Shown in pieces: positions 114 to 47,603 of a stretch of 64,000 nucleotides of DNA. The notes below the pieces were generated by a model, which made no database searches, was not told where the DNA came from, and saw nothing but the letters and a program-made list of their open reading frames with translations. Position numbers and translations under genes: made by a program. Each line of letters begins with the position of its first letter. Position 1 is the first letter of the stretch. This DNA is from Haloplanus sp. HW8-1 (GTDB lineage Archaea; Halobacteriota; Halobacteria; Halobacteriales; Haloferacaceae), in contig NZ_CP098518.1 of the NCBI RefSeq assembly GCF_023703795.1, positions 1 through 64,000 of the forward strand, read 5' to 3'.

Positions 114-2156
114 ATGACGACCCGACTCACGCTCGCCGATCCGGAGGACGCTGGAGAACCGACACCGGCGGCCGGCACCGTCAGGTTCGCGCCGGCCACA
201 CGACGCCGCGTCGGCGTCGACGTGGGCGACGCGGTGCGTATCGAGGGTGGCGACGCGACGGCAGCCACTGTCGGCGAGGACGCCCCCGACCTGCCGGCCG
301 GGGTCGTCGTCGCGAGCGAGGCGGTCCGGCGCAACGCCGGTGTCGACGCCGGGATGCCGGTCACCGTCGAGTCGATCACACCCGACCGTGCGCGAACCGT
401 CACGGTCAGTCCGACACGCTCGTTCTCGCTCGAAGGCGACGCCGGGGCGCTGTCGCGTTCGCTTACGGGGCGTGCTCTGACCACCGGGGATCGAATCCAG
501 CCCGACCTGTTCGGCGGGAGTATCGCCGTCTCCCTGACCGTCGTCGACGTCGATCCCGAGGGGCCGGTCGTGGTGACGCCGGCGACGACCGTCACCGTTC
601 GCGAAGGCGACGCGCCCCCCGCGACCGACCCGGCACCCGTCCCCGCCGACGTCGGCGGTCTGGCCGACGAACTGGAGGCGCTTCGACGACTCGTCGCGCC
701 GCTCTCGGCGCCGGGCAGCGGCATCCGATCGCCCGCAGGGGTGCTCGTCCACGGTCCGTCGGGTGTGGGGAAGACGCTCCTCGTCGGGCGGGTCGCAACC
801 GAGGCCGACCTGTCCATCCACGAGGCCACCCCCGACGACTGCGAGCGCCGCGACTCCCTGTCGACGATACTGCGTGCCGCCGGCGACGACGCCCCGGCCC
901 TCATCCACGTCGAAGACCTCGAAACGGCCGCTCCCAACCCGGATCGGGAGGGCGGACGGCGGGGACGCTCGGCGCTCGGCTGGCTCCTCGACCGCGTTCG
1001 CGACCGCGAGGACCTCCTTGTCGTGGGCGAGGCCACACAGGCCGACGCGGTCGATCCGACGCTCAGACGTGGCGGGCGGTTCGACGCCGAAATCCGGGTC
1101 GGCGTCCCCGGCCAGTCGGCGAGGCGGGAGATCCTCGGGATCCACGCCGCGGCGCTTGACCTCGCCGACGACGTCGACCTCGACGCGGTCGCGACCCACG
1201 CCCACGGGTACACGGGTGCCGATCTGGAGGCAGTTCTCGTCGACGCCGCCACGCGGGCGGCCGCTCGTGCCGACGGCGGCGCCACCGTGACGGCTGCGGA
1301 CGTCGAAGCGGCCCTCGACGCCGTCCGCCCGACGACGCTTCGCGAGGTGACGGTTGAGCGGCCCTCCGTCTCCTATCGCGACATCGGTGGACTGGCCCCC
1401 GCCAAGCGTGAGGTGATCCGAACGGTCGAGTGGCCGCTCCGGTATCCACGCCTGTTCGAACGCCTCGCCGTCGACGCTCCCACCGGCGTCCTGCTCTACG
1501 GGCCGCCCGGAACCGGGAAGACGATGCTCGCCAAGGCCGTCGCGAACTCGACGGACGCGAACTTCCTCGCCGTCGATGGGCCCGAACTGATGAACCGCTA
1601 CGTCGGGGAGAGCGAACGCGGCGTCCGCGAGGTGTTCGAGCGCGCCCGCCGTATCGCGCCGTCGGTCGTCTTCCTCGACGAACTCGACGCCCTCGCTCCG
1701 ACCCGCCGCGGGGCCGACACCGGTGCGGCCGAGCGAGTCGTCTCGCAGTTGCTGACGGAACTCGACGGTCTCTCGCCCCGCGGATCGGTGGTGGTGTTGG
1801 CGGCGACGAACCGCCCGGATGCGGTCGATCCGGCGTTGCTCCGTCCCGGCCGCATCGAAAAACGGGTCGCGGTTCCTCTCCCCGACGAGGACGCCCGGGC
1901 GGAGATCCTCGCGATCCACCTCGACGGCGTTCCCACCCGCGGCGTCGACACGGAAACGATCGCGAAACGCACGGCCGGATACACCGGCAGCGACCTCGCG
2001 GGCGTCGTCCGCGAGGCGGCCCTGCTCGCCATGGAGACGTACCTCCAGGCCGACGGCTCCCCCGACGACGCCCTCGATCGACTCGTGGTCGAACCGGACC
2101 ACCTCGAACGGGCGATCGAAGCCACGCGACCCTCGGTCGACCCCGAGGAGACGTGA
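114..2156 (+). CDS. CDC48/VAT-like AAA ATPase with degenerate first ring
   Basis: A protein of 680 residues with the CDC48/VAT layout: an N-terminal double-psi-barrel-like substrate domain (about 1-180) and two AAA modules. These proteins unfold or extract substrates in the cytoplasm, often feeding the proteasome. Module 2 is complete: Walker A GPPGTGKT at about residue 463, Walker [11 protein letters not shown], and a second region of homology with ATNRPD and an RPGR arginine finger. Module 1 has an altered Walker A (GPSGVGKT, about 214) and a Walker B that reads HVEDLE instead of a normal DExD/E. The ATG at 114 is chosen because the CDC48 N-domain begins there; longer upstream extensions look non-coding. 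It stands alone on its strand. The family call is sure; the cellular substrate is unknown. Confidence 0.93.
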
Positions 2157-2211: not shown

Positions 2212-2379
2212 ATGGAGAAAGACACCCTCGTCTTCGGGACTCACGGCGTCGTCGCGCTCGGGCTGATCGCGTTCGGCGCGTATCGCGTCTCCGGGGGAGC
2301 GGTCGTTCCCGGCGCACTCAACGTGGTGATGGCGGCCGCCGTCGTGGTCGTCGGTCGGTACGTCGCCGACCTCGCGTGA
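2212..2379 (+). CDS. Small two-helix membrane protein
   Basis: Encodes 55 residues beginning MEKDTLVFGTHG, with two hydrophobic stretches (about 10-27 and 34-52) separated by a short polar turn. A second ATG four bases upstream, at 2208, is in another frame. No family is recognised. It sits just after the AAA ATPase gene and converges on the rhodopsin gene. Confidence 0.6.
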   Translation: MEKDTLVFGTHGVVALGLIAFGAYRVSGGAVVPGALNVVMAAAVVVVGRYVADLA

Positions 2380-2407: not shown

Positions 2408-3142
2408 TCAGTCCACCGAGACGCCCGACGATGGGTCCGAACCGGACGCATCCGTCGCGTCGGCGACCGCTCGGCTCCGGAGCAGGACCGTCCCGAACCC
2501 GACCTTCGCGACGAGGTCGAGGAAGGTGAACCCGAGCACCTCCATCGGCGGCGGGACGAGACCGACACCGGCGGTGCCGACGAGCCACCAGACGGGGTAG
2601 CCCGCCCACGTCACGCCGACGAGGCCCCGGAGGACGCCGTACGTCTCACGTGTCGCCTCGCCGAGTTCGCGTGCCCGCCTGCCGAGCGCCACGAAGACGT
2701 AGTACAACACGAGGAGGAACGCGACCGTACTCACCCCCCACCAGGCGTAGCGGTACAGCCGAACGCCCGACAGCGTGGCCGCGATTCCGGTCACGATCAT
2801 GAACGCGTCGGCCGCCACCGCACCGAACACCGTCTCGGTGTCCGCCCCGACGAGCAACCCCAACGCGATCAGCAACAGCGGCGTCGTGAACAGCCAGTCG
2901 GCGTACCGCGCCCAGTGAACCTCGAGTGTGCCGCCGCGGACCGGCACTTCGGCCACGCCGACACCGAGCGCCATCGCCAGATACGAACCGAACGCGATCG
3001 TCGGGACGAGTGCCGTGACGACGTGGAGTCCCCTCGATCGCGGTCCCTCGGCGTCGAGTCCCCGGACCGCGAAATACAGGGCGCCGAGCCCCATCAGCGC
3101 CGCGCCGACGGCGAACACGGACCGGACCGGTAGGTCGACCAT
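2408..3142 (-). CDS. Microbial rhodopsin without the usual cytoplasmic proton donor
   Basis: A seven-helix retinal protein of 244 residues. Helix C reads RYADWLFTTPLLL, and helix G carries the Schiff-base lysine in LDLVAKVGFG (K213). Against bacteriorhodopsin numbering (offset 3), R82, D85, T89, D115, W182, Y185, W189, E204, D212 and K216 are all kept. D96, the cytoplasmic proton donor, is alanine (A93), and E194 is alanine (A191). A pump without D96 cycles slowly, and known sensory rhodopsins also lack it, so this may be a sensor, a slow pump or a middle-rhodopsin type. No transducer (Htr) gene is next to it. Carotenoid genes that could supply retinal lie 0.7-2.5 kb away on the other strand. 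Rhodopsin identity is certain; the functional class is not. Confidence 0.9.
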   Translation of the reverse strand: MVDLPVRSVFAVGAALMGLGALYFAVRGLDAEGPRSRGLHVVTALVPTIAFGSYLAMALGVGVAEVPVRGGTLEVHWARYADWLFTTPLLLIALGLLVGADTETVFGAVAADAFMIVTGIAATLSGVRLYRYAWWGVSTVAFLLVLYYVFVALGRRARELGEATRETYGVLRGLVGVTWAGYPVWWLVGTAGVGLVPPPMEVLGFTFLDLVAKVGFGTVLLRSRAVADATDASGSDPSSGVSVD

Positions 3143-3360
3143 CCACCCTCCATCAGCGCTCCCACCGTGTTAGTGGGCACACCAAACTCATGGGTGTCGT
3201 CGATCCGGATCCCCGGCTCCCGGACGGCCGCTGGCGGCGTCACGACCGGTCGCAGCAGGACGGCGAGCCGGAACGTTTCGGCCGTCTCGGCCGGCGTCTC
3301 CGGTGACGAGGCGGACTAGCTTGGTTCGTGATTGAAGCTACGGGGCGCGTACGGGCAAAC

Positions 3361-3696
3361 GTGACCGACGATAGTGATCGGACGACCGAAACCGACGCCG
3401 AAACGGCCCGAACGACCGGCCAGCGAACGGAGGACGACGAGGATGTCGTCGTCGACCTCGACTCCGCGACGGCGTACGAAGAGCGCGTCGACGAACTACA
3501 GGAGACGGTCGAGGCTCAGGAAGAACGGATCGAGGAACTCGAGGACCTTCTGCTCGACCTCTCGGTTCGCGCCGCCGACGACCGGGGAATGGGCGTCTGC
3601 CCGGAGTGTCACGGCCCCGTGGAAAAGGTGAAACGCTGGTTCGGTCCGACGACGATCGAGTGTCGACGGTGTGGGGAAGCGTTCCACGAGTACTGA
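3361..3696 (+). CDS. Coiled-coil protein with C-terminal zinc ribbon
   Basis: Starting at the GTG at 3361, the protein has about 111 residues: an acidic disordered N-terminus, a coiled coil around 40-70 (YEERVDELQETVEAQEERIE), and a C-terminal zinc ribbon with CPECH and CRRCG pairs. A GTG at 3328 would add 11 residues. The domain order resembles small haloarchaeal proteins of unknown role, possibly nucleic-acid or protein binding. It lies between the rhodopsin gene and the phytoene synthase gene. Confidence 0.75.
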   Translation: MTDDSDRTTETDAETARTTGQRTEDDEDVVVDLDSATAYEERVDELQETVEAQEERIEELEDLLLDLSVRAADDRGMGVCPECHGPVEKVKRWFGPTTIECRRCGEAFHEY

Positions 3697-3795
3697 GCGG
3701 GATCACCCCAACTGTGTTGGTATGCTTTTCAGTCCGGTGGAGCGTGTAGCCACGAGTGTGCGAACCGCGTGATCGTTCGGCGGGACACTCAAACA

Positions 3796-4764
3796 ATGAC
3801 TTCACACGAACGGATCCGGCGGAGCAAAGCCGTCCAGCGCCACACTGGGCTGACCTTTCACGTCGCGACGCGGTTGCTTCCGAAACGGGTCCGCCACCCG
3901 ACGTACGTCCTATACGCGTTCTTCCGGACGGCCGACGAGATCGTCGACGCGGTCGATCCCGGCCCCCCGGCCGAGCAGCGGCGCGAACTCGAACGCTTGC
4001 GTGCGGCCGTTCTCGGCGAGTGCGAGACGGACGATCCGGTTCTCGCTGGCGTCGCGGACCTACGTGACCGCCACGACATCCCCCGCGAGGAGATCGACGC
4101 CTTCGTCGACTCGATGCTGATGGACGTCGACAAGGGGCGGTACCGGACACGCGACGAACTCTCCGCGTACCTCCGCGGATCGTCGGTCGCCGTCGGACAC
4201 ATGATGCTCGACGTCATGGACCCCGACGACGCGGAGACGGCCCGCCCACACGCCGCAGCACTCGGCGAGGCGTTCCAACTCACGAACTTCCTCCGCGACG
4301 TCCGCGAGGACGTCCGCGAGTACGACCGCATCTACCTGCCGGCCGAGACGCTTCGATCGCACGGTTGTTCCCACGCGGACATCGAGTCGTTGACCTTCTC
4401 AGACGGCGTCGCGGCGGCCATCCGCGACGAACTCCGGTGGACCGAGCGCCGGTACCGACGCGGTGTCGACGGCATCAGGTATCTTCCCGAGGACTGTCAG
4501 TTCCCCGTGCTGGCGGCCGCAGTGATGTACGCGGACCAACATCGGCTCATCCGCGAGCGCGGATACGACGTCCTCTCCGCCCGCCCGACGCTGACGGTGC
4601 GGCGACGGCTCGGCCTCGTCGCACGGGCGTGGCTCCACTGGCAGTTCTCCGGGGACCCCCTCGCAGCGTTCTATGAGGTGACCGATCTCGAAACACCCAC
4701 GGACGCCGGCGAAGTCCCGTCCCGGGTGGAGTACGCTCATGATCCGTCCTCCGGTTCGGACTGA
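3796..4764 (+). CDS. crtB: Phytoene synthase
   Basis: A squalene/phytoene synthase family protein of 322 residues. It joins two geranylgeranyl diphosphates into phytoene, the first committed step to bacterioruberin and to beta-carotene and retinal. Both Asp-rich substrate motifs are visible: RTADEIVD near the N-terminus, and NFLRDVREDVREYDRIYLP in the middle. The ATG at 3796 is the first Met before the conserved KAVQRHTGLTFHVATRLLP block. A lycopene cyclase gene follows 33 bases after the stop, so the two probably form an operon serving the nearby opsin. Confidence 0.93.
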   Translation: MTSHERIRRSKAVQRHTGLTFHVATRLLPKRVRHPTYVLYAFFRTADEIVDAVDPGPPAEQRRELERLRAAVLGECETDDPVLAGVADLRDRHDIPREEIDAFVDSMLMDVDKGRYRTRDELSAYLRGSSVAVGHMMLDVMDPDDAETARPHAAALGEAFQLTNFLRDVREDVREYDRIYLPAETLRSHGCSHADIESLTFSDGVAAAIRDELRWTERRYRRGVDGIRYLPEDCQFPVLAAAVMYADQHRLIRERGYDVLSARPTLTVRRRLGLVARAWLHWQFSGDPLAAFYEVTDLETPTDAGEVPSRVEYAHDPSSGSD

Positions 4765-4797: not shown

Positions 4798-5610
4798 GTG
4801 ATCCCGACGGTGCTCGCGTCGGTCACGTCGACCTATCTCGCCTATCTGACCGTCACCGTCGGCGGCCCGTTGCTCGTCGTCGCCGCGCTCGCGCGGTATC
4901 GCGGCGGCCTCCGGACCCCCGTCGACGCGCTCGGCGTCGGCGTACTCATGGTGATCGCCTTCTCCTATACGTTCGCGTGGGACGGGTATCTCATCGAACG
5001 CGGCGTCTGGTGGTACGGCGAGGGGGTCGTGACCGCACGCGTCTCGGGCATCCCGATCGGCGAACTCGCCTTCTTTCTCCTGCAGACGGCACTCACTGGG
5101 CTCTGGCTCTACGTCATCGATCCGTCGCCCGACCCTTCCCGTCCGACGGCCGTCCGGTCGCGCCCCGTCGGCCTCCTGTCGATCGTCGGCCTCGAACTCG
5201 CCGGGCTGGTGCTGTTCTATACGTCCTCCGGTTACTACCTCGGTTACATCCTCCTGTGGGGGATGCCGATCGTCGGCTTTCTCTGGGTGCTCGGCGGGCC
5301 GCTCATCTGGCGCCTCCGCCGTCCAGTCGCGCTGGCGATCCTCGTCCCGACGGTCTACCTCTGGATCGTCGACCGAGTCGCCATCGGCCTCGGGCTCTGG
5401 ACGATCTCGCCGACCCACTCGACCGGATTCCAGGTCTTCGGTCTCCCCGTCGAGGAGATGGCGTTTTTCCTCCTGACGAACGTCCTCGTCGTGTTCGGGT
5501 TGGTGCTCTACCAGTGGGTCGTGGCCCGAACCGACCGACACGACCTCGTCGAGGGATTCCGGGGGTTGGTCCCCCGTGGCGGCGTCGGCAAGCCACCCGG
5601 CGAAGAGTGA
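4798..5610 (+). CDS. crtY: Lycopene beta-cyclase, fused CrtYc-CrtYd membrane type
   Basis: A polytopic membrane protein of 270 residues with seven or eight predicted helices and two homologous halves. Each half has a WWYGEG/WTISPT-like segment and a glutamate motif: IPIGELAFF in the first (only one acidic residue) and LPVEEMAFFLLTN in the second (full PxE(E/D)). This is the fused heterodimeric cyclase architecture of archaea, which converts lycopene to beta-carotene. It starts with GTG at 4798 directly after the phytoene synthase gene. No carotene-cleaving brp/blh gene lies in the window. Confidence 0.88.
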   Translation: MIPTVLASVTSTYLAYLTVTVGGPLLVVAALARYRGGLRTPVDALGVGVLMVIAFSYTFAWDGYLIERGVWWYGEGVVTARVSGIPIGELAFFLLQTALTGLWLYVIDPSPDPSRPTAVRSRPVGLLSIVGLELAGLVLFYTSSGYYLGYILLWGMPIVGFLWVLGGPLIWRLRRPVALAILVPTVYLWIVDRVAIGLGLWTISPTHSTGFQVFGLPVEEMAFFLLTNVLVVFGLVLYQWVVARTDRHDLVEGFRGLVPRGGVGKPPGEE

Positions 5611-41680: not shown

Positions 41681-42720
41681 GCGACGGCGAGCGCGCCCGT
41701 CCCGACCTGACGCCGTCGGACGCCGTCGACCGGTGGCTCGACCGCCAGCGGATGGAACTCGCCGAATCGTCGGTCGGAAGCTACGCCCGACGTCTCGGTC
41801 ACTTCGTCGAGTGGTGCGACGACGAGGGTGTCGACCACCTCGCCGACCTCGAACCGTGGGACCTCGGTGCCTACGAGGACCACCGGCGCGCGGTCGTCGC
41901 GCCCGTCAGCCTCAACAACGAGTTGACGACGCTTCGGCAGTTACTCGACTGGGCGGCCAGCCTCGACCTCGTCGACGACGCCGTCGCCGAGGCGGTCGAC
42001 CCGCCGAAGGTCGACAAGGCCGACCAGGTGAGCGAGACTCTGCTCGAACCGGAACGTGGCGAGGCGCTACTCGCGGTGTTCCGTGCCGGCCGTCAGTACA
42101 CGCGGGAACACGCGTGGCTCGAACTGTCGTGGTGGACCGGCGCCCGGATGGGTTCGATCCGTGGCCTCGACGTCGACGACGTCGACCTCGACGAGGGACA
42201 CGTACAGTTTCGGCACCGGCCCGAAGAGGAGACACCGCTGAAGAACGGGTACGACGGCGAGCGGATCGTCGGGATCTCCGACGACGTCGCCGAGGCGTTG
42301 AGTGCGTACATCAGCAACCGCCCCCAGACGACCGACGACTACGGTCGTCGCCCGGTGTTCGCGACCCAGTACGGGCGGATCGCCGGCTCGACGCTACGGG
42401 AGACCTGTTACTACGCTACCCATCCCTGTCGTGCGGTTCCGTGTCCCCACGAGAAGGACCGGGTCACCTGTGAGCACCATTCGCGGACATCCTCGTACGG
42501 GTGTCCGTCGGCTCGGTCGCCCCACGAGGTGCGGTCCGGAAGTATTACCTGGCAGCTTCACCGCGGACTCTCGAAGGACGTCGTTGCTGACCGCGTGAAC
42601 GCAACGATCGAGGTGATCGAGCGGCACTACGACCAGGCGCGACAACTCGAAGAGTTCCGACAGCGGCGGGCTGCCCACTTGCACAAGCTCGGGATCGACA
42701 GCAACGAGGAGAACACATGA
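41677..42720 (+). CDS. int: Tyrosine integrase of the provirus
   Basis: 347 residues: an N-terminal SAM-like core-binding domain (DAVDRWLDRQRMELAESSVG...) and a catalytic domain with Arg in TGARMGSIRGL, HxxR in SPHEVRSGSITW and the nucleophile in ERHYDQA. Cys/His residues at 250-275 (CRAVPCPHEKDRVTCEHH) suggest an inserted zinc site, seen in some haloarchaeal integrases. Ends 40 bases before the right att core, the usual place for a tRNA-targeting integrase. Confidence 0.88.
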   Translation: MSDGERARPDLTPSDAVDRWLDRQRMELAESSVGSYARRLGHFVEWCDDEGVDHLADLEPWDLGAYEDHRRAVVAPVSLNNELTTLRQLLDWAASLDLVDDAVAEAVDPPKVDKADQVSETLLEPERGEALLAVFRAGRQYTREHAWLELSWWTGARMGSIRGLDVDDVDLDEGHVQFRHRPEEETPLKNGYDGERIVGISDDVAEALSAYISNRPQTTDDYGRRPVFATQYGRIAGSTLRETCYYATHPCRAVPCPHEKDRVTCEHHSRTSSYGCPSARSPHEVRSGSITWQLHRGLSKDVVADRVNATIEVIERHYDQARQLEEFRQRRAAHLHKLGIDSNEENT

Positions 42721-42872
42721 CCAACGCTACGACCGACGACGTCGAACGGCGCAGAGTCCAAATCCGGGCGGTCCCACTCCCACTTTTTGCTCGGTCGCTG
42801 CGCTCCCTCGCAAAAACTTGGGGAAAAACCGAAGGGCAAGATTCGAATCAGGGAGCGAAACGAGCGACGTGA
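42717..42872 (+). CDS. Possible small ORF crossing the right att site
   Basis: 51 codons, MTNATTDDVERRRVQIRAVP, starting in a 4-base overlap with the integrase stop and reading through the att core. It may be an integration artefact. Confidence 0.25.
   Translation: MTNATTDDVERRRVQIRAVPLPLFARSLRSLAKTWGKTEGQDSNQGAKRAT
42761..42776. repeat. attR of the provirus
   Basis: AATCCGGGCGGTCCCA, identical to the 3' end of tRNA-Pro (27857-27872). Confidence 0.8.
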
Positions 42873-42896
42873 GCGGAGCGACCGTGGTTCGCAATT

Positions 42897-42917
42897 CGGG
42901 CGGTCCCATACCGTTAT
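42897..42917. repeat. Second att-like site, left end of decayed element
   Basis: Identical over 21 bp to 27861-27881 and similar for about 60 bp more, matching the left end of the provirus beyond the tRNA. It marks the left boundary of a second, degraded element. Confidence 0.7.
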
Positions 42918-42960
42918 TCCGGCGAAACAACAGACTGCGGGCACCCGCTTAACTCGGGAG

Positions 42961-43344
42961 GTGGTCGCCCGTGAGTACGACCTCGACCACCGTCCGGACG
43001 AGGCGGAGTGGTACGACTGCGTGAATCTGCGGACTGGGACGAAGTACGAGGTGAAGTCGACGGTCCGGGAGTACAGGGGCGAGTATTCGGACGGTGACCC
43101 CGGTCGGTACAGGCTGTGGGAGGACCAGCACGTCTCGCTGGTGCGGGCGGACGCGTCAGGGACCGCGTGGTACGCGTTCGTGCTGTACGACCGCGACGGC
43201 GGTGAGCCGCTGCAGATACGGCGGATGCGGCCCTCGACGGTGACGACGGTAGTCGAGGAGATCGGGGACGGCGGGTGGAATCTATCGGGGCATCAGCGAC
43301 GGGAGCGGCAGCAGAAGGTGCCGTGGAACGCGCTTTTTGATTGA
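42961..43344 (+). CDS. ExK nuclease-like protein of the second element
   Basis: About 127 residues from the GTG at 42961. A relative of 35383-35832: YEVKSTV, RYRLWEDQHVSLV, AWYAFVLYDRD and GGWNLSGHQ. The open frame continues upstream through the att-like site to 42787, so the original N-terminus may have been replaced during integration. Confidence 0.55.
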   Translation: MVAREYDLDHRPDEAEWYDCVNLRTGTKYEVKSTVREYRGEYSDGDPGRYRLWEDQHVSLVRADASGTAWYAFVLYDRDGGEPLQIRRMRPSTVTTVVEEIGDGGWNLSGHQRRERQQKVPWNALFD

Positions 43345-43446
43345 CCGTGGAAGATGTCTGCTCATCCGGTTATTTATCGATGGATTTCTTACTAACTAGT
43401 ACACTCATCCGCCGATGACCGTCGACGACGTCCGCGACGCACCGGC

Positions 43447-43662
43447 GATCGCGTCGACGATGATGACACCGGGTGGACGTACCTGACGTTCCACGACCTA
43501 CGTCGGACCTGGGCGACGGCGCTCGCGAGCGAAGACGTTGATCCCCTGCTCGTCTGTGACTGGGGCGGCTGGAACGACCTGGAGACGTTCTTAGATCACT
43601 ACCGCGGGACCTTCTCGCCAGAAGCGCAGAAGCGGGCGCGCGACGGTGTCGCGTGGCTTTAG
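43447..43662 (+). pseudogene. 3' fragment of a short tyrosine recombinase
   Basis: The last 71 codons only: DDTGWTYLTFHDLRRTWATA, DWGGWNDLETF and DHYRGTFSPEAQKRARDGVAWL. Matches the C-terminus of 37576-38160. HxxR and the catalytic Tyr remain, but the catalytic Arg and Lys are gone. Its stop overlaps vapC by 4 bases, as in the intact copy. Confidence 0.75.
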
Positions 43663-44045
43663 TACGTCTCGACGTCGACCCCGAACGCTTCGAAGTCGTC
43701 GACGTTCCGCGTGAGAACTGGTTCGCCTTCTATCTCGCCTGTGGCACCAATAGCGGCGTCACCTTTGTTTTTCTTCAGTTTCGCGGTGTTTCCCTCCCCG
43801 ATCCGTCGCCCGGCGAGTCGAGAGATTTCGTCAGTCATCGGAACGAACGGGTGCGGTTGTAGCACCTGACGCACTTTCTGTTCCTCATCGTCGGTCATCT
43901 CCGCCCCGACACCGATGTAGAGTTCGAGTACTGCCATCGCGGGTATCTTGACCGGGATACCCCCCGCTTCGAGTTCGCGGAGCTTCTGTCGAGCGCCAGC
44001 GTCCCGCTTCATCAGATCGATTAAGAAGTCCGTGTCGGCGATCAT
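43659..44045 (-). CDS. vapC: VapC-type PIN-domain toxin, second cassette
   Basis: 128 residues, MIADTDFLIDLMKRDAGARQ, with acids in D4/D6, AVLELYIGV, KGDAAIGA and NVDDFEAFG. Overlaps vapB by 4 bases. Only distantly similar to the 38157 toxin. Confidence 0.82.
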   Translation of the reverse strand: MIADTDFLIDLMKRDAGARQKLRELEAGGIPVKIPAMAVLELYIGVGAEMTDDEEQKVRQVLQPHPFVPMTDEISRLAGRRIGEGNTAKLKKNKGDAAIGATGEIEGEPVLTRNVDDFEAFGVDVETY

Positions 44046-44278
44046 TCGAACTGACCGAGGACTTCGTCGACTTCGCGGGCATCGGCTTCGTTTGCCTCCT
44101 CGATTGCACCTTCCATCCGTTCGACCCGACTCTCGTCGTCGAGCACGTCCCCCAGTTCGGCAAGCGAGCGGCCGCCCAGCAGCCGCTCGACGGCCTCCGA
44201 AAACGTCTCGTCGTCTCGCTTGTTCTCCCGAAGACGTTCATAGACGTCGTCGTCCAAGCGGATCGTTTTGGTTCCCAT
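44042..44278 (-). CDS. vapB: VapB-type antitoxin, second cassette
   Basis: 78 residues, MGTKTIRLDDDVYERLRENK then RDDETFSEAVERLLGG. Same N-terminal pattern as the 38595 antitoxin. A GTATAC motif lies just upstream of the start in both. Confidence 0.82.
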   Translation of the reverse strand: MGTKTIRLDDDVYERLRENKRDDETFSEAVERLLGGRSLAELGDVLDDESRVERMEGAIEEANEADAREVDEVLGQFE

Positions 44279-44316
44279 GTATACGCAGTATACTTCGAGC
44301 TACTTAGGGGACGGGT

Positions 44317-44646
44317 TTACCCGAACCCCGCCCACCACCCGGGCCGCACCTTATCGGGTGGCCGCACCGCCGGGAGCGGCCGCCTCAACTCGGCGTCGAC
44401 GTCCCCGTCGAGATACATCTCGCCCCAGCCGGTAATCTCGTACTCGTCGTCGAGCCCGACGTCGCGAAAGTAGACGTCGACGCACCCCGCGTTCGCGAGG
44501 ACGCGACACCGATTCTCGATCCGGCGTCGGTCGCCCTCGATGCCCTGTTCGTAGGCGATCTCCCACGCCGTCGCCGTTGACACCGACGACAGATACTCGA
44601 GGATGCGGTCGTCGGTGTGGGTCATCCAGGGGCCGGTCTTTCTCAC
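44317..44646 (-). CDS. Winged-helix regulator, second cassette
   Basis: 109 residues, close homologue of 39254-39595 (WMTHTDDRILEYLSSVSTAT; CRVLANAGCVDVYFRDVGL; PPDKVRPGWWAGFG). Directly upstream of vapB, so it may regulate the toxin pair. Confidence 0.75.
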   Translation of the reverse strand: MRKTGPWMTHTDDRILEYLSSVSTATAWEIAYEQGIEGDRRRIENRCRVLANAGCVDVYFRDVGLDDEYEITGWGEMYLDGDVDAELRRPLPAVRPPDKVRPGWWAGFG

Positions 44647-44655
44647 GGAGGGTTT

Positions 44656-44841
44656 CTACGCCTGCGCTTCGCCCTGCTCTCCGTTCGATCCCTCGGATCC
44701 GTCGACTCGCCACCGTTCGAGCGTTCGTGTGCTGTCTTGGTGGATGCGTTCAGCACGATACGCCGAGCGTTCGATCCAGTCGGTTTCGGTTCGATCACTC
44801 TCTTCGGCCGAGCGGACCGGTGACGGTCGGTCGTGGATCAC
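44656..44841 (-). CDS. Possible small gene after the histidine kinase
   Basis: 61 codons from a GTG that overlaps the kinase stop by 3 bases (GTGA), which suggests coupling. Polar, no motif. Confidence 0.3.
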   Translation of the reverse strand: MIHDRPSPVRSAEESDRTETDWIERSAYRAERIHQDSTRTLERWRVDGSEGSNGEQGEAQA

Positions 44842-47603
44842 TCCCGGTCGACCGTCCGCAACTCGACGGCGAAGACGGCGCCTTCGGGTTCGTTGTCTTC
44901 GACCCAGACCTCACCGCCGTACTGGGTGACCAGGTGCTGGACCAGGTAGAGACCGAGCCCGGTGCCGGTACTGTCGAGTCCCTTCTCGCCCTGTCCGAAG
45001 ATTTCGTCTTTCTGCCCGTCGGGAACGCCAGGGCCGTTGTCCGCCACGTAGACGACGACGCTCCCGTCGCGGTTCGTCGCCGACACCGAAATCTCGGGTG
45101 GATCGCTGTCGTTGTGTTGGACGGCATTGGAGAGGAGGTTCCGGAACACAGAGTCCAACATCGGATTGGCTTGGACCTGCACTGCCGGCAGCGAGCCCTC
45201 GACCGTCAGGCGTACGTCCGGATGTTCGGCCTCGATTCTATTGAGTTCGCTCTCCAGCGTGCTGTGGAGGTCGACTCGTTGTTGGTCGGCCGTTTCCCGT
45301 GACACCATCACGTCGGCCATCTCCCCTGCTGTCTCGGTCAGTTCGATCGCGTGGTCGGCGCTGTTTCGCAGCGTCTCGAGATATCCGACTCCCGCCTCGT
45401 CGACGTGATCGGCCAAGCGGTCGCCGTACGCAGTCACCAACTGGAGGTCGTTGCGAATATCGTGTCGTAGTACTCGATTCAGAATGTCGAGGTCGTCGCG
45501 CTGCTGTTCGAGGCGCCGTTCGTACTCTTTGCGTTCGGTGAGATCCTGAACCACGCCGTCGAAACGCAACTCCCCGTCGACGTCCCTGGCGATCGCCGTC
45601 ACGGATCCCCAGATGGGCTCCCCGGCGAGCGTTTCGAGTTCGATCTCCTCGTCGGTCACGATACCCTCCTTGGCCAATCTCTCGGCGAACGCGGCTCGAT
45701 CGTCGCTGTCCCGGTACAGGTCGCTAACGCTGTGTTCTCGAAGTTCCTCCTTGGAGTCGGCATCGAACAACTCGACCATCGCGTCGTTGAGCAACTCGAA
45801 CCGCCCATCCAGTCCGGGGGTGTTCTGATAGACTCCGATCGGGAGGTTCTCGACGAGACGCTCGTAGCGTTCGAGCGCCCGTCGTCGTTCCTTTCGCCGT
45901 GTGATGTCTCGATTGACGGCGACGAATGCCTCGATCGATCCGTCTTCGGCTTCGATCGGGGAGATCGTCTGGTCGAGGATGATCTCCTCGCCCCCTTTCG
46001 TCTCGTCGTGCATCTCGTTGTGCCACGGGTTTCCAGCCGTGATCGTCTCCCACAGTTCCTCGTACACTGCGTCGTCGTGTTCGGTCGACTGGAGGAGTGT
46101 CGGCGTCTCGCCGACGGCTTCGTCGGCGGTGTATCCCGTTATCTCTTCGAACGCCGGGTTGACGTAGCGAATCGTCCCCTCCGGGTCCGTTATGTAGATC
46201 GCGTGGGCAGCCTGTTCGACGGCTTCCTTGAACTGGCGGAGTCGTTGTGCTCGCCGTTTTCGCTCGGTCACGTCCGTGAAGGTCGCGAGAACGGCCGGGC
46301 CCCCCTCGTGTCGAATCCGCGCGACTTTCAGATCGATATGCCTGCGCTGACCCGTAGCGGTCAGAACCCCGACGTCGTAGCGATCAGGTGGGTGGGATCC
46401 CCGAATTCGGCTCTCGTGCCGCTCCCGTACGAGTTCGCGGTCGTCCGGAACGATGATCTCCTCGATGGACCGTCCCACCAACTCCGCTTCGGGGACGCCG
46501 AGCAACTCGGTCATCGCCTCGTTTACGAAGACGAGTTCGGCGTCTTGGACGATGGCGATACCGTCCTGACTCTGTTCGACGAGCGTCGTGTACCGCTGAC
46601 GTTCCTCTTCGATGGCCCGTTTCTGCTGCTCGCGTCGCCTGATCGCGGCTTCGAGCGTCCGGCTGAGGTCGTTGAATGCGGCTTCGATTCGTTTCCACTC
46701 GTCGCCGCTGCCAAGCGTTATCTGGGTTCCGTACTCCCCGTCTTCGAGCGTCTCGAATCCACCGAGCAGTCGTTCGAGTTGCCTGATGTTTCGTCGGTAG
46801 ACGATCCAGCCGATCCCTCCCAGCATCCCCAGCAGGACGACGAGCGACCCGATCTGGACGTACGTAACCGTCCGTATCGTCGACTGGACGGTGTTTCGGC
46901 TCTCTTGGACGCTCACCGTCCAGCCGGTCGCGGGGACCGTCGCGTTCCGGGTGATCAGATCGGTCGTCGGATCGGGATCGGCATCGTAGATGGCCGTTCC
47001 GTCCCGTGCGTAAATCGTCAATCCTTGCTCTCGTTCGAGCGTCGAGCCGAACCGAGAGAAGAACGTGTCCCCGGAGAGATGAACGGCGGCGTTGACGGTT
47101 CCGACGACTTCGCCCTCACGACGGATCGGCGCACTCACCGTGACGACGTAGTTCCCGGACGCCGCTTTGAACGGTCTGCTGATGTACGTCCGTCCGTCTC
47201 TGGCCTGCCGAAAATACTCCCGGTCGTCGAACTGCGACCCGACGAGGCTGCGACGGCTCTCGGCCGACACGTTCGCCACGATGGCCGTCATCGTTCCGTT
47301 GGCGGCGATGACCGAGGCACCGGCGAACGCGGATCGGTTCACGAAACTCCCCAAGGCCTCCCGTTGGGCGACGGTTCCGTGACGAGCGAGCGCAGGATTC
47401 GCCGCCGCGACCCCGACCGTTCGCTCGAGCGTCAGCAGTTGCTTGTTCAGTTCCGACTGGACGTGCTCGGTGGTCCGGTTCACCTCGGCCGTTTCCTGCG
47501 CGTACAGCGTTCGTTTGTACTGCTGGAACCCGACGACGATGGCCCCCGTGAAGACGACGGCGACGACGAGAAGAGAGACAAAAACCAACCGTTTCGCGGT
47601 CAT
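44838..47603 (-). CDS. Membrane histidine kinase with Cache-type sensor and PAS domains
   Basis: 921 residues. Two membrane helices (about 7-25 and 255-275) bracket an extracytoplasmic double-Cache-like domain. Then come a HAMP-like segment, three PAS domains (near 345, 465 and 590) and the kinase core: H-box NRVLRHDIRNDLQLV, N-box RNLLSNAVQHND, G1 VADNGPGVPD and G2 GTGLGLYLVQHLV. It senses an external ligand and phosphorylates an unidentified response regulator; none is adjacent. ATG start. Confidence 0.9.
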   Translation of the reverse strand: MTAKRLVFVSLLVVAVVFTGAIVVGFQQYKRTLYAQETAEVNRTTEHVQSELNKQLLTLERTVGVAAANPALARHGTVAQREALGSFVNRSAFAGASVIAANGTMTAIVANVSAESRRSLVGSQFDDREYFRQARDGRTYISRPFKAASGNYVVTVSAPIRREGEVVGTVNAAVHLSGDTFFSRFGSTLEREQGLTIYARDGTAIYDADPDPTTDLITRNATVPATGWTVSVQESRNTVQSTIRTVTYVQIGSLVVLLGMLGGIGWIVYRRNIRQLERLLGGFETLEDGEYGTQITLGSGDEWKRIEAAFNDLSRTLEAAIRRREQQKRAIEEERQRYTTLVEQSQDGIAIVQDAELVFVNEAMTELLGVPEAELVGRSIEEIIVPDDRELVRERHESRIRGSHPPDRYDVGVLTATGQRRHIDLKVARIRHEGGPAVLATFTDVTERKRRAQRLRQFKEAVEQAAHAIYITDPEGTIRYVNPAFEEITGYTADEAVGETPTLLQSTEHDDAVYEELWETITAGNPWHNEMHDETKGGEEIILDQTISPIEAEDGSIEAFVAVNRDITRRKERRRALERYERLVENLPIGVYQNTPGLDGRFELLNDAMVELFDADSKEELREHSVSDLYRDSDDRAAFAERLAKEGIVTDEEIELETLAGEPIWGSVTAIARDVDGELRFDGVVQDLTERKEYERRLEQQRDDLDILNRVLRHDIRNDLQLVTAYGDRLADHVDEAGVGYLETLRNSADHAIELTETAGEMADVMVSRETADQQRVDLHSTLESELNRIEAEHPDVRLTVEGSLPAVQVQANPMLDSVFRNLLSNAVQHNDSDPPEISVSATNRDGSVVVYVADNGPGVPDGQKDEIFGQGEKGLDSTGTGLGLYLVQHLVTQYGGEVWVEDNEPEGAVFAVELRTVDRE

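Follow-up and report, generated by a model that had tools for sequence, protein, structure and literature searches.

Genes at the locus

The window considered here is the whole stretch of DNA that was analysed, 64,000 nucleotides from one end of contig NZ_CP098518.1 of Haloplanus sp. HW8-1. Near its start lies a gene for a rhodopsin, here called RHO_A, surrounded by genes that are familiar from the neighbourhood of haloarchaeal bacteriorhodopsin (BR). The features discussed below, together with the other rhodopsins of the same genome, are collected in Table 1.

Table 1. Features at the RHO_A locus (window positions) and other rhodopsin genes of the source genome (contig C1).
Feature	Position	Strand	Remarks
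CDC48-like AAA ATPase	117..2156	(+)	start codon uncertain; recurrent flank of haloarchaeal bop-type genes
Donor-less rhodopsin RHO_A	2408..3142	(-)	244 aa, ATG start; D85, T89, E204, D212 and K216 kept, Ala at 96 and 194
bop-UAS-like element ACCCATGAGTTTGG	3182..3195	(-)	40-53 nt upstream of the RHO_A ATG
Zinc-ribbon protein, divergent from RHO_A	3328..3696	(+)	assigned from position and neighbours; no Pfam or NCBIfam match
Phytoene/squalene synthase family, crtB by context	3769..4764	(+)	PF00494; start uncertain
crtY-type lycopene cyclase	4798..5610	(+)	TIGR03462 and PF18916, both above cut-off
Canonical BR with D96	C1:3509023
HmBRI-type second BR	C1:3169687
Halorhodopsin	C1:1711043
SR-like rhodopsin	C1:3127690		beside an MCP gene

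The zinc-ribbon protein is a probable homologue of OE3095R. The NCBIfam synthase models matched the gene named crtB only under their cut-offs. A further open reading frame of 55 aa (window 2212-2379, +), with two hydrophobic stretches, runs convergent with the RHO_A gene.

Read from the contig end inward, the cluster contains genes for a small membrane protein, BR, a Brz-type protein, blh, a phytoene desaturase of the crtI type, a bat-type regulator, a START/polyketide-cyclase-like protein, the AAA ATPase, RHO_A, the zinc-ribbon protein, crtB and crtY; the Bat- and Brz-type genes are recognised by matches to PF15915 and PF23454. The start of the canonical BR lies about 8.8 kb from that of RHO_A, on the far side of the contig end. 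This distance assumes a circular chromosome, which agrees with the 8.7 kb spacing seen in three further genomes and with their matching gene order. The cluster genes tested have the identical order in G281, G080 and G135, a comparison in which the small membrane protein was outside the G135 stretch or unmatched there, and the Brz-type gene was not a marker. In G240, where no RHO_A orthologue was found, BR, bat, START, AAA, zinc-ribbon and crtB are retained, and blh, crtI and crtY had no match in the 39 kb fetched.

Elsewhere, the place between the AAA and zinc-ribbon homologues is taken by BR itself. This is so in 13 of 26 loci (L014-L039, with 1.5-kb flanks); two more have the zinc-ribbon gene and no AAA gene within those flanks. 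For H. walsbyi and H. marismortui, passages of PMC2253796 likewise describe a zinc-finger gene that lies upstream of bop in divergent orientation. Thus, RHO_A occupies a usual bop position. Besides its RHO_A cluster, G135 has an extra AAA / small membrane protein / BR / zinc-ribbon locus (L062, G135:C1:1122877-1123584), whose AAA protein is only 48% identical to that of the window and was perhaps acquired.

A rhodopsin without the proton donor

RHO_A matches PF01036 (Bac_rhodopsin) with an E value of 9.3e-58, the sole Pfam family found in the open reading frame. It is a type 1 microbial rhodopsin by this match, by K213, which corresponds to the retinal Lys K216, and by a helical model that matches BR structures. 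That model, built from a 3-row alignment with a mean pLDDT of 74, has the BR fold, with query-normalised TM values of 0.84-0.87 against the BR structures listed. NCBIfam returned no family for RHO_A or for the other rhodopsins submitted (three in all).

Helix C of RHO_A reads RYADWLFTTPLLLIALGLL. Here, D82 is the equivalent of D85 in BR, T86 of T89, and A93 stands at position 96; further along, A191 is aligned with E194, and E201, D209 and K213 with E204, D212 and K216. In BR numbering, used from here on, the retained residues are Y57, R82, Y83, D85, W86, T89, T90, L93, D115, M118 and G122 in the first half of the protein, and W138, S141, T142, W182, Y185, P186, W189, E204, D212, A215 and K216 in the second. 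A reading of the letters alone, the sequence-only reading, had picked out Ala at the D96 and E194 positions beside an intact D85, T89, E204, D212 and K216, and the alignment to BR bears this out at every site.

The motif DTD is that of archaeal pumps (passages of PMC4585134), and RHO_A has its D85 and T89 and lacks the D96 donor. Of the E194/E204 release pair, E204 is retained and E194 is absent in all four orthologues described below. The sequence-only reading had concluded that the protein resembles neither a DTD pump nor a classic SRI or SRII, with Tyr or Phe at 96; given the Ala in the alignment, this conclusion holds.

Orthologues and selection

The source genome has 3,839,886 bases in three contigs, and encodes five rhodopsins. 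A profile search of 12 Haloplanus genomes, the source included, found RHO_A orthologues in four of them, with identities to RHO_A of 72% (G281), 70% (G080) and 56% (G135); none was found by it in the other eight, one of which is only 79% complete. All four lie at the equivalent locus, and the reading frame is open in each. Position 96 is occupied by A, G, G and V, position 194 by A, a gap, a gap and R, position 79 (Tyr in BR) by H, H, H and R, and position 46 by T, A, A and A. All four have Phe at 145, and the G135 protein has Thr at 215, as NpSRII does. D96 and E194 are both present at the 26 other loci aligned (L014-L039, among the best matches).

The retinal pocket follows a different pattern. 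Of the 21 sites that we take to line it, 20 are invariant in the four orthologues, compared with 102 of all 227 aligned positions (P 5e-7 by a hypergeometric test), and 19 carry the HsBR residue in all four. Because three more orthologues lack D96 and E194 and the pocket is conserved, the trait is more than chance or the oddity of a single genome: it characterises a clade within Haloplanus.

Nei-Gojobori dN/dS, computed on genes trimmed to their alignable part, is 0.26-0.61 for RHO_A; the canonical BR genes of these genomes give 0.056-0.135. Taken pair by pair, the RHO_A value is 3.9-5.3 times that of the neighbouring BR, and it is below 1 in all six pairs. The highest values (0.53-0.61) come from pairs that include G135. 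Six other genes of the cluster give 0.16-0.34; the zinc-ribbon stretch of G080 contains one stop codon near its start. RHO_A is constrained, yet more weakly than BR, with the constraint focused on the retinal pocket.

An upstream element shared with BR and blh

The element upstream of RHO_A is called bop-UAS-like by comparison with consensus letters that we presume to be those of the bop UAS. Each of the four RHO_A genomes has a single copy of the sequence ACCCATNAGTTTGG, directly upstream of RHO_A; the eight other Haloplanus genomes have none, and the reversed control had zero matches in the 12. A looser pattern, ACCC-N4/5-GTTTGG, has three copies in 129 kb of the organism's own sequence, before RHO_A, BR and blh only. 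The chance expectation is 0.06-0.28 per stretch (window, L006-L009), figures that are optimistic because both patterns were written after the upstream regions had been viewed.

The looser pattern precedes the RHO_A orthologue and blh in G281 and G080, and the RHO_A orthologue only in G135. In these three genomes it was not found before BR, and G240 lacks it over the 39 kb fetched around the BR gene; nor was the element found before crtB in the source genome. Allowing two mismatches in the UAS search gave 34 matches versus 60 in the reversed control, and exact matches alone were therefore used. Co-regulation of RHO_A with the purple membrane is likely on this evidence.

Phylogenetic placement

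Four trees were built. Tree 1 had 62 rows. Tree 2 had 45, the rows of sensory rhodopsins (SR) and halorhodopsins (HR), L070 and L018 having been dropped. Tree 3 had 48, with Haloquadratum-type rhodopsins added and L022 and L033 removed as duplicates. Tree 4, with 52, kept HR and dropped the SR rows, L070 and L018. The four Haloplanus proteins form a clade of their own in every tree (98/91, 100/100, 100/99 and 97/84 in trees 1-4). The sequence-only reading had depended on there being no clustering inside a known clade in which Ala is usual at 96, and none is seen: the proteins stand apart, and they have D85 and T89, unlike the T/S of HR.

Without HR (trees 2 and 3), the RHO_A clade attaches outside or inside the HsBR/HwBR group; with HR (tree 4), it joins the HR branch at a weak support of 89/69, and a deep link to HR may exist. 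The branch from HR to the rest is 9.9 changes per column in tree 4, which makes long-branch attraction likely. AU tests on tree 2 did not clearly reject a grouping of the clade with HwBR (p 0.053) or with HsBR (p 0.19), so it is only position that argues for orthology to the BR of the AAA/zinc-ribbon loci.

The attachment in tree 4 raises the possibility that RHO_A descends from halorhodopsins (motif TSA), where Ala at 96 is normal, and the Phe at 145 that RHO_A has in common with HR and NpSRII points the same way. However, RHO_A has Asp and Thr at 85 and 89, not the Thr and Ser of HR; its Trp138 and Thr142 are those of BR, not Tyr and Cys; RHO_A sits at the bop locus, with the promoter element; and it is 43-52% identical to the non-orthologous BR-like matches listed, versus 35.5-37% to six Haloplanus HRs. 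With long-branch attraction a likely source of the grouping, descent from HR is highly improbable. Identity, pocket, locus and promoter element favour an origin from BR.

Nor does RHO_A belong with the middle rhodopsins, as tree 3 places it and the second Haloquadratum rhodopsin in separate clades. That second rhodopsin (L102:8430-9245, -, and also in L103 and L104) lies beside HwBR-type genes, and has D96, Gly194 and Thr215; we presume that the L102 protein is a middle rhodopsin. The HwBR-type gene of G314 (L104:5027-5789) gave its match as two pieces in different frames, and may be frameshifted or misassembled.

Occurrence among haloarchaea

A sample of 391 haloarchaeal genomes, spread evenly with one genome per species, was searched for the DNA pattern R-Y-x-D-W-x-x-T-T-P-x-x-x-x-[96]. 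The D85-T89 motif is followed by Asp at 96 in 177 of these and by Ala, Gly or Val in five; the counts cover rhodopsins that have the neighbouring residues fixed by the pattern and D, A, G or V at 96. The Haloplanus clade accounts for four of the five. The other is G310, from another family, with a genome 88% complete.

The G310 rhodopsin (L070:1261-2022; G310:C21, +) has Ala at 96, Asn at 194, Ile at 46 and Ser at 50. It groups with the HmBRI-type proteins (86/96) on a long branch, and its gene is followed by an adjacent crtY-type gene and a blh-type gene; G310 also has a BR with D96. This suggests that the same two residues were lost twice, independently in G310, although one long-branch sequence is thin evidence.

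Candidate transducers

SRI has Tyr at position 96; Phe is found there in NpSRII and in the SR-like protein of the source genome itself. RHO_A has no aromatic residue at this site and no adjacent htr. The claim in the sequence-only reading that no transducer gene is adjacent proved correct. The genome has 16 MCP matches; the one least distant from RHO_A lies about 66 kb off, past the contig end, and a single one adjoins a rhodopsin gene, the SR-like one. The same reading had proposed a search for a distant htr; it gave two candidates among the 16 matches, neither of which co-occurs with RHO_A.

A simple hydropathy scan of the MCPs singled out these two (L094, L098), which have a short-loop N-terminal topology: their two TM segments lie close together, and a large outer domain is lacking. 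The motif filter passed over L097 and L101, and the N-termini of L086, L096 and L099 lie beyond the locus. The L098 type occurs in 10 of 12 Haloplanus genomes and the L094 type in 3 of 12. Neither tracks RHO_A across the genus, and both were rejected as its distant partner. In G135 just a 131-aa frame matched the L098 type (G135:C1:977309-977593), and this gene may be broken. The classic Htr route is disfavoured, because no transducer found co-occurs with RHO_A. Two MCP-gene pairs on C3 of G000 (42495-46160 and 139947-143612) have identical scores and lie exactly 97,452 bases apart, as would result from a large duplication or from double assembly of a circular replicon.

Proposed photocycle and role

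Within helix limits that we assume, no ionisable stand-in for D96 was found in RHO_A; among residues on the cytoplasmic side, the closest candidate is a His at position 43, which three of the four orthologues have. In BR, the Schiff base is reprotonated by D96 after M (passages of PMC4585134). Passages of PMC3760879 report that in BR-D96N and BR-D96G the stationary photocurrent falls at least 20-fold and M lives for about 300 and 800 ms, and that sensory rhodopsins expressed without transducers form long-lived M as well.

From the observed sequence, motif, clade, locus, promoter element and selection pattern, we infer the photochemistry, expression and role of RHO_A as follows. Light would isomerise the retinal and the Schiff-base proton would move to D85, forming M, as expected because the acceptor D85 and T89 are present. 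With neither a carboxylate nor Lys at the donor site, reprotonation would last for hundreds of milliseconds or longer, as it does in the D96G and D96N mutants, so that M would build up and little pumping would result. RHO_A is probably a protein that responds slowly to light, not an efficient pump, and may act with a partner as a slow-cycling, pump-derived light sensor or regulator. It would probably be made together with the purple membrane, because it has the bop position and an element common to BR and blh.

We give a probability of about 0.5 to the reading that RHO_A is a photoactive, retinal-binding paralogue of BR that has lost D96 and E194, has a slow M, and is likely a pump-derived sensor or regulator. 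A more specific scenario is offered tentatively: a Haloplanus BR, through loss of the donor and of one release residue and with its chromophore pocket intact, may have become a slow-M photosensor or photoregulator without an Htr transducer, made with the purple membrane, and the G310 protein may independently have done likewise. Against a sensor, of course, is that no signalling partner was found among the 16 MCP matches.

RHO_A might instead still pump, as a low-rate, voltage-sensitive auxiliary proton pump that works, for example, when the cytoplasm is acidic or when a small molecule donates the proton. D85, R82, E204, D212 and T89 are all kept, BR without D96 retains slow pumping, pumping is possible without the release group (passages of PMC8387761), and azide restores the pumping of D96N and D96G (passages of PMC3760879). 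However, the abstract of PMC3760879 terms disruption of Asp-96 fatal for proton pumping by BR, and with the canonical BR so near in the same cluster, selection for a far weaker copy is hard to see; we consider such a pump possible, if on the unlikely side.

The raised dN/dS bears on another reading, that of a bop duplicate made redundant by the second BR, its function fading gradually. Slow decay is also expected to give the higher values seen in the G135 pairs, and it would accommodate the several-fold excess over the nearby BR when compared pair by pair, the missing proton-path residues, and the eight of 12 genomes in which no orthologue was found. Yet four frames are open, dN/dS is below 1 in every pair, and pocket, counter-ion and promoter element are conserved, all of which makes decay improbable. 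Still less probable is that RHO_A serves, with no transport or signalling of its own, as an accessory subunit in BR trimers or as a screening pigment, a role with which the cluster and the promoter element common to RHO_A and BR would agree.

Relation to known rhodopsins

The slow-cycling sensor or regulator proposed here remains close to BR (HsBR, HwBR) in identity (47-50% to the structures listed), fold, a near-identical pocket, counter-ion and gene neighbourhood. It differs in lacking D96 and E194, in having H, H, H or R for Y79 and Phe for M145, and in its weaker constraint. The laboratory mutants D96A (PDB 2i1x, residue read from the alignment), D96G and D96N are altered at the donor site that is also changed in RHO_A, and a long-lived M and weak pumping were measured for D96G and D96N (passages of PMC3760879). 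Unlike these, RHO_A is natural, is retained in a clade, and combines the change with the loss of E194 and others.

With SRI and SRII, RHO_A shares the want of a carboxyl donor at 96 and, by expectation, a long M; it departs from them in having Ala, Gly or Val where Phe would stand, in having no adjacent transducer, and in its BR-like pocket (Trp138, Ser141, Thr142). HR resembles it in Ala at 96 and Phe at 145, and differs in the T/S at 85/89, in having Glu at 194 and in its locus. The second Haloquadratum-type rhodopsin is also an extra BR-like gene in a bop/crtY/blh neighbourhood with a residue other than Glu, here Gly, at 194, but it keeps D96 and belongs to a separate clade. Among the open-licence papers listed for Haloplanus rhodopsins and for DTA/DTG motifs, no title or opening line of an abstract dealt with RHO_A.

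D96 mutants of BR are a laboratory tool for slowing the photocycle, and a natural clade with Ala, Gly or Val at this site and the pocket kept is their evolutionary counterpart. The clade would supply natural long-M rhodopsins for optogenetics or optical memory. It could also show a route from pump to sensor; and if RHO_A is a sensor without a transducer, this raises the question of the route by which haloarchaeal rhodopsins signal.
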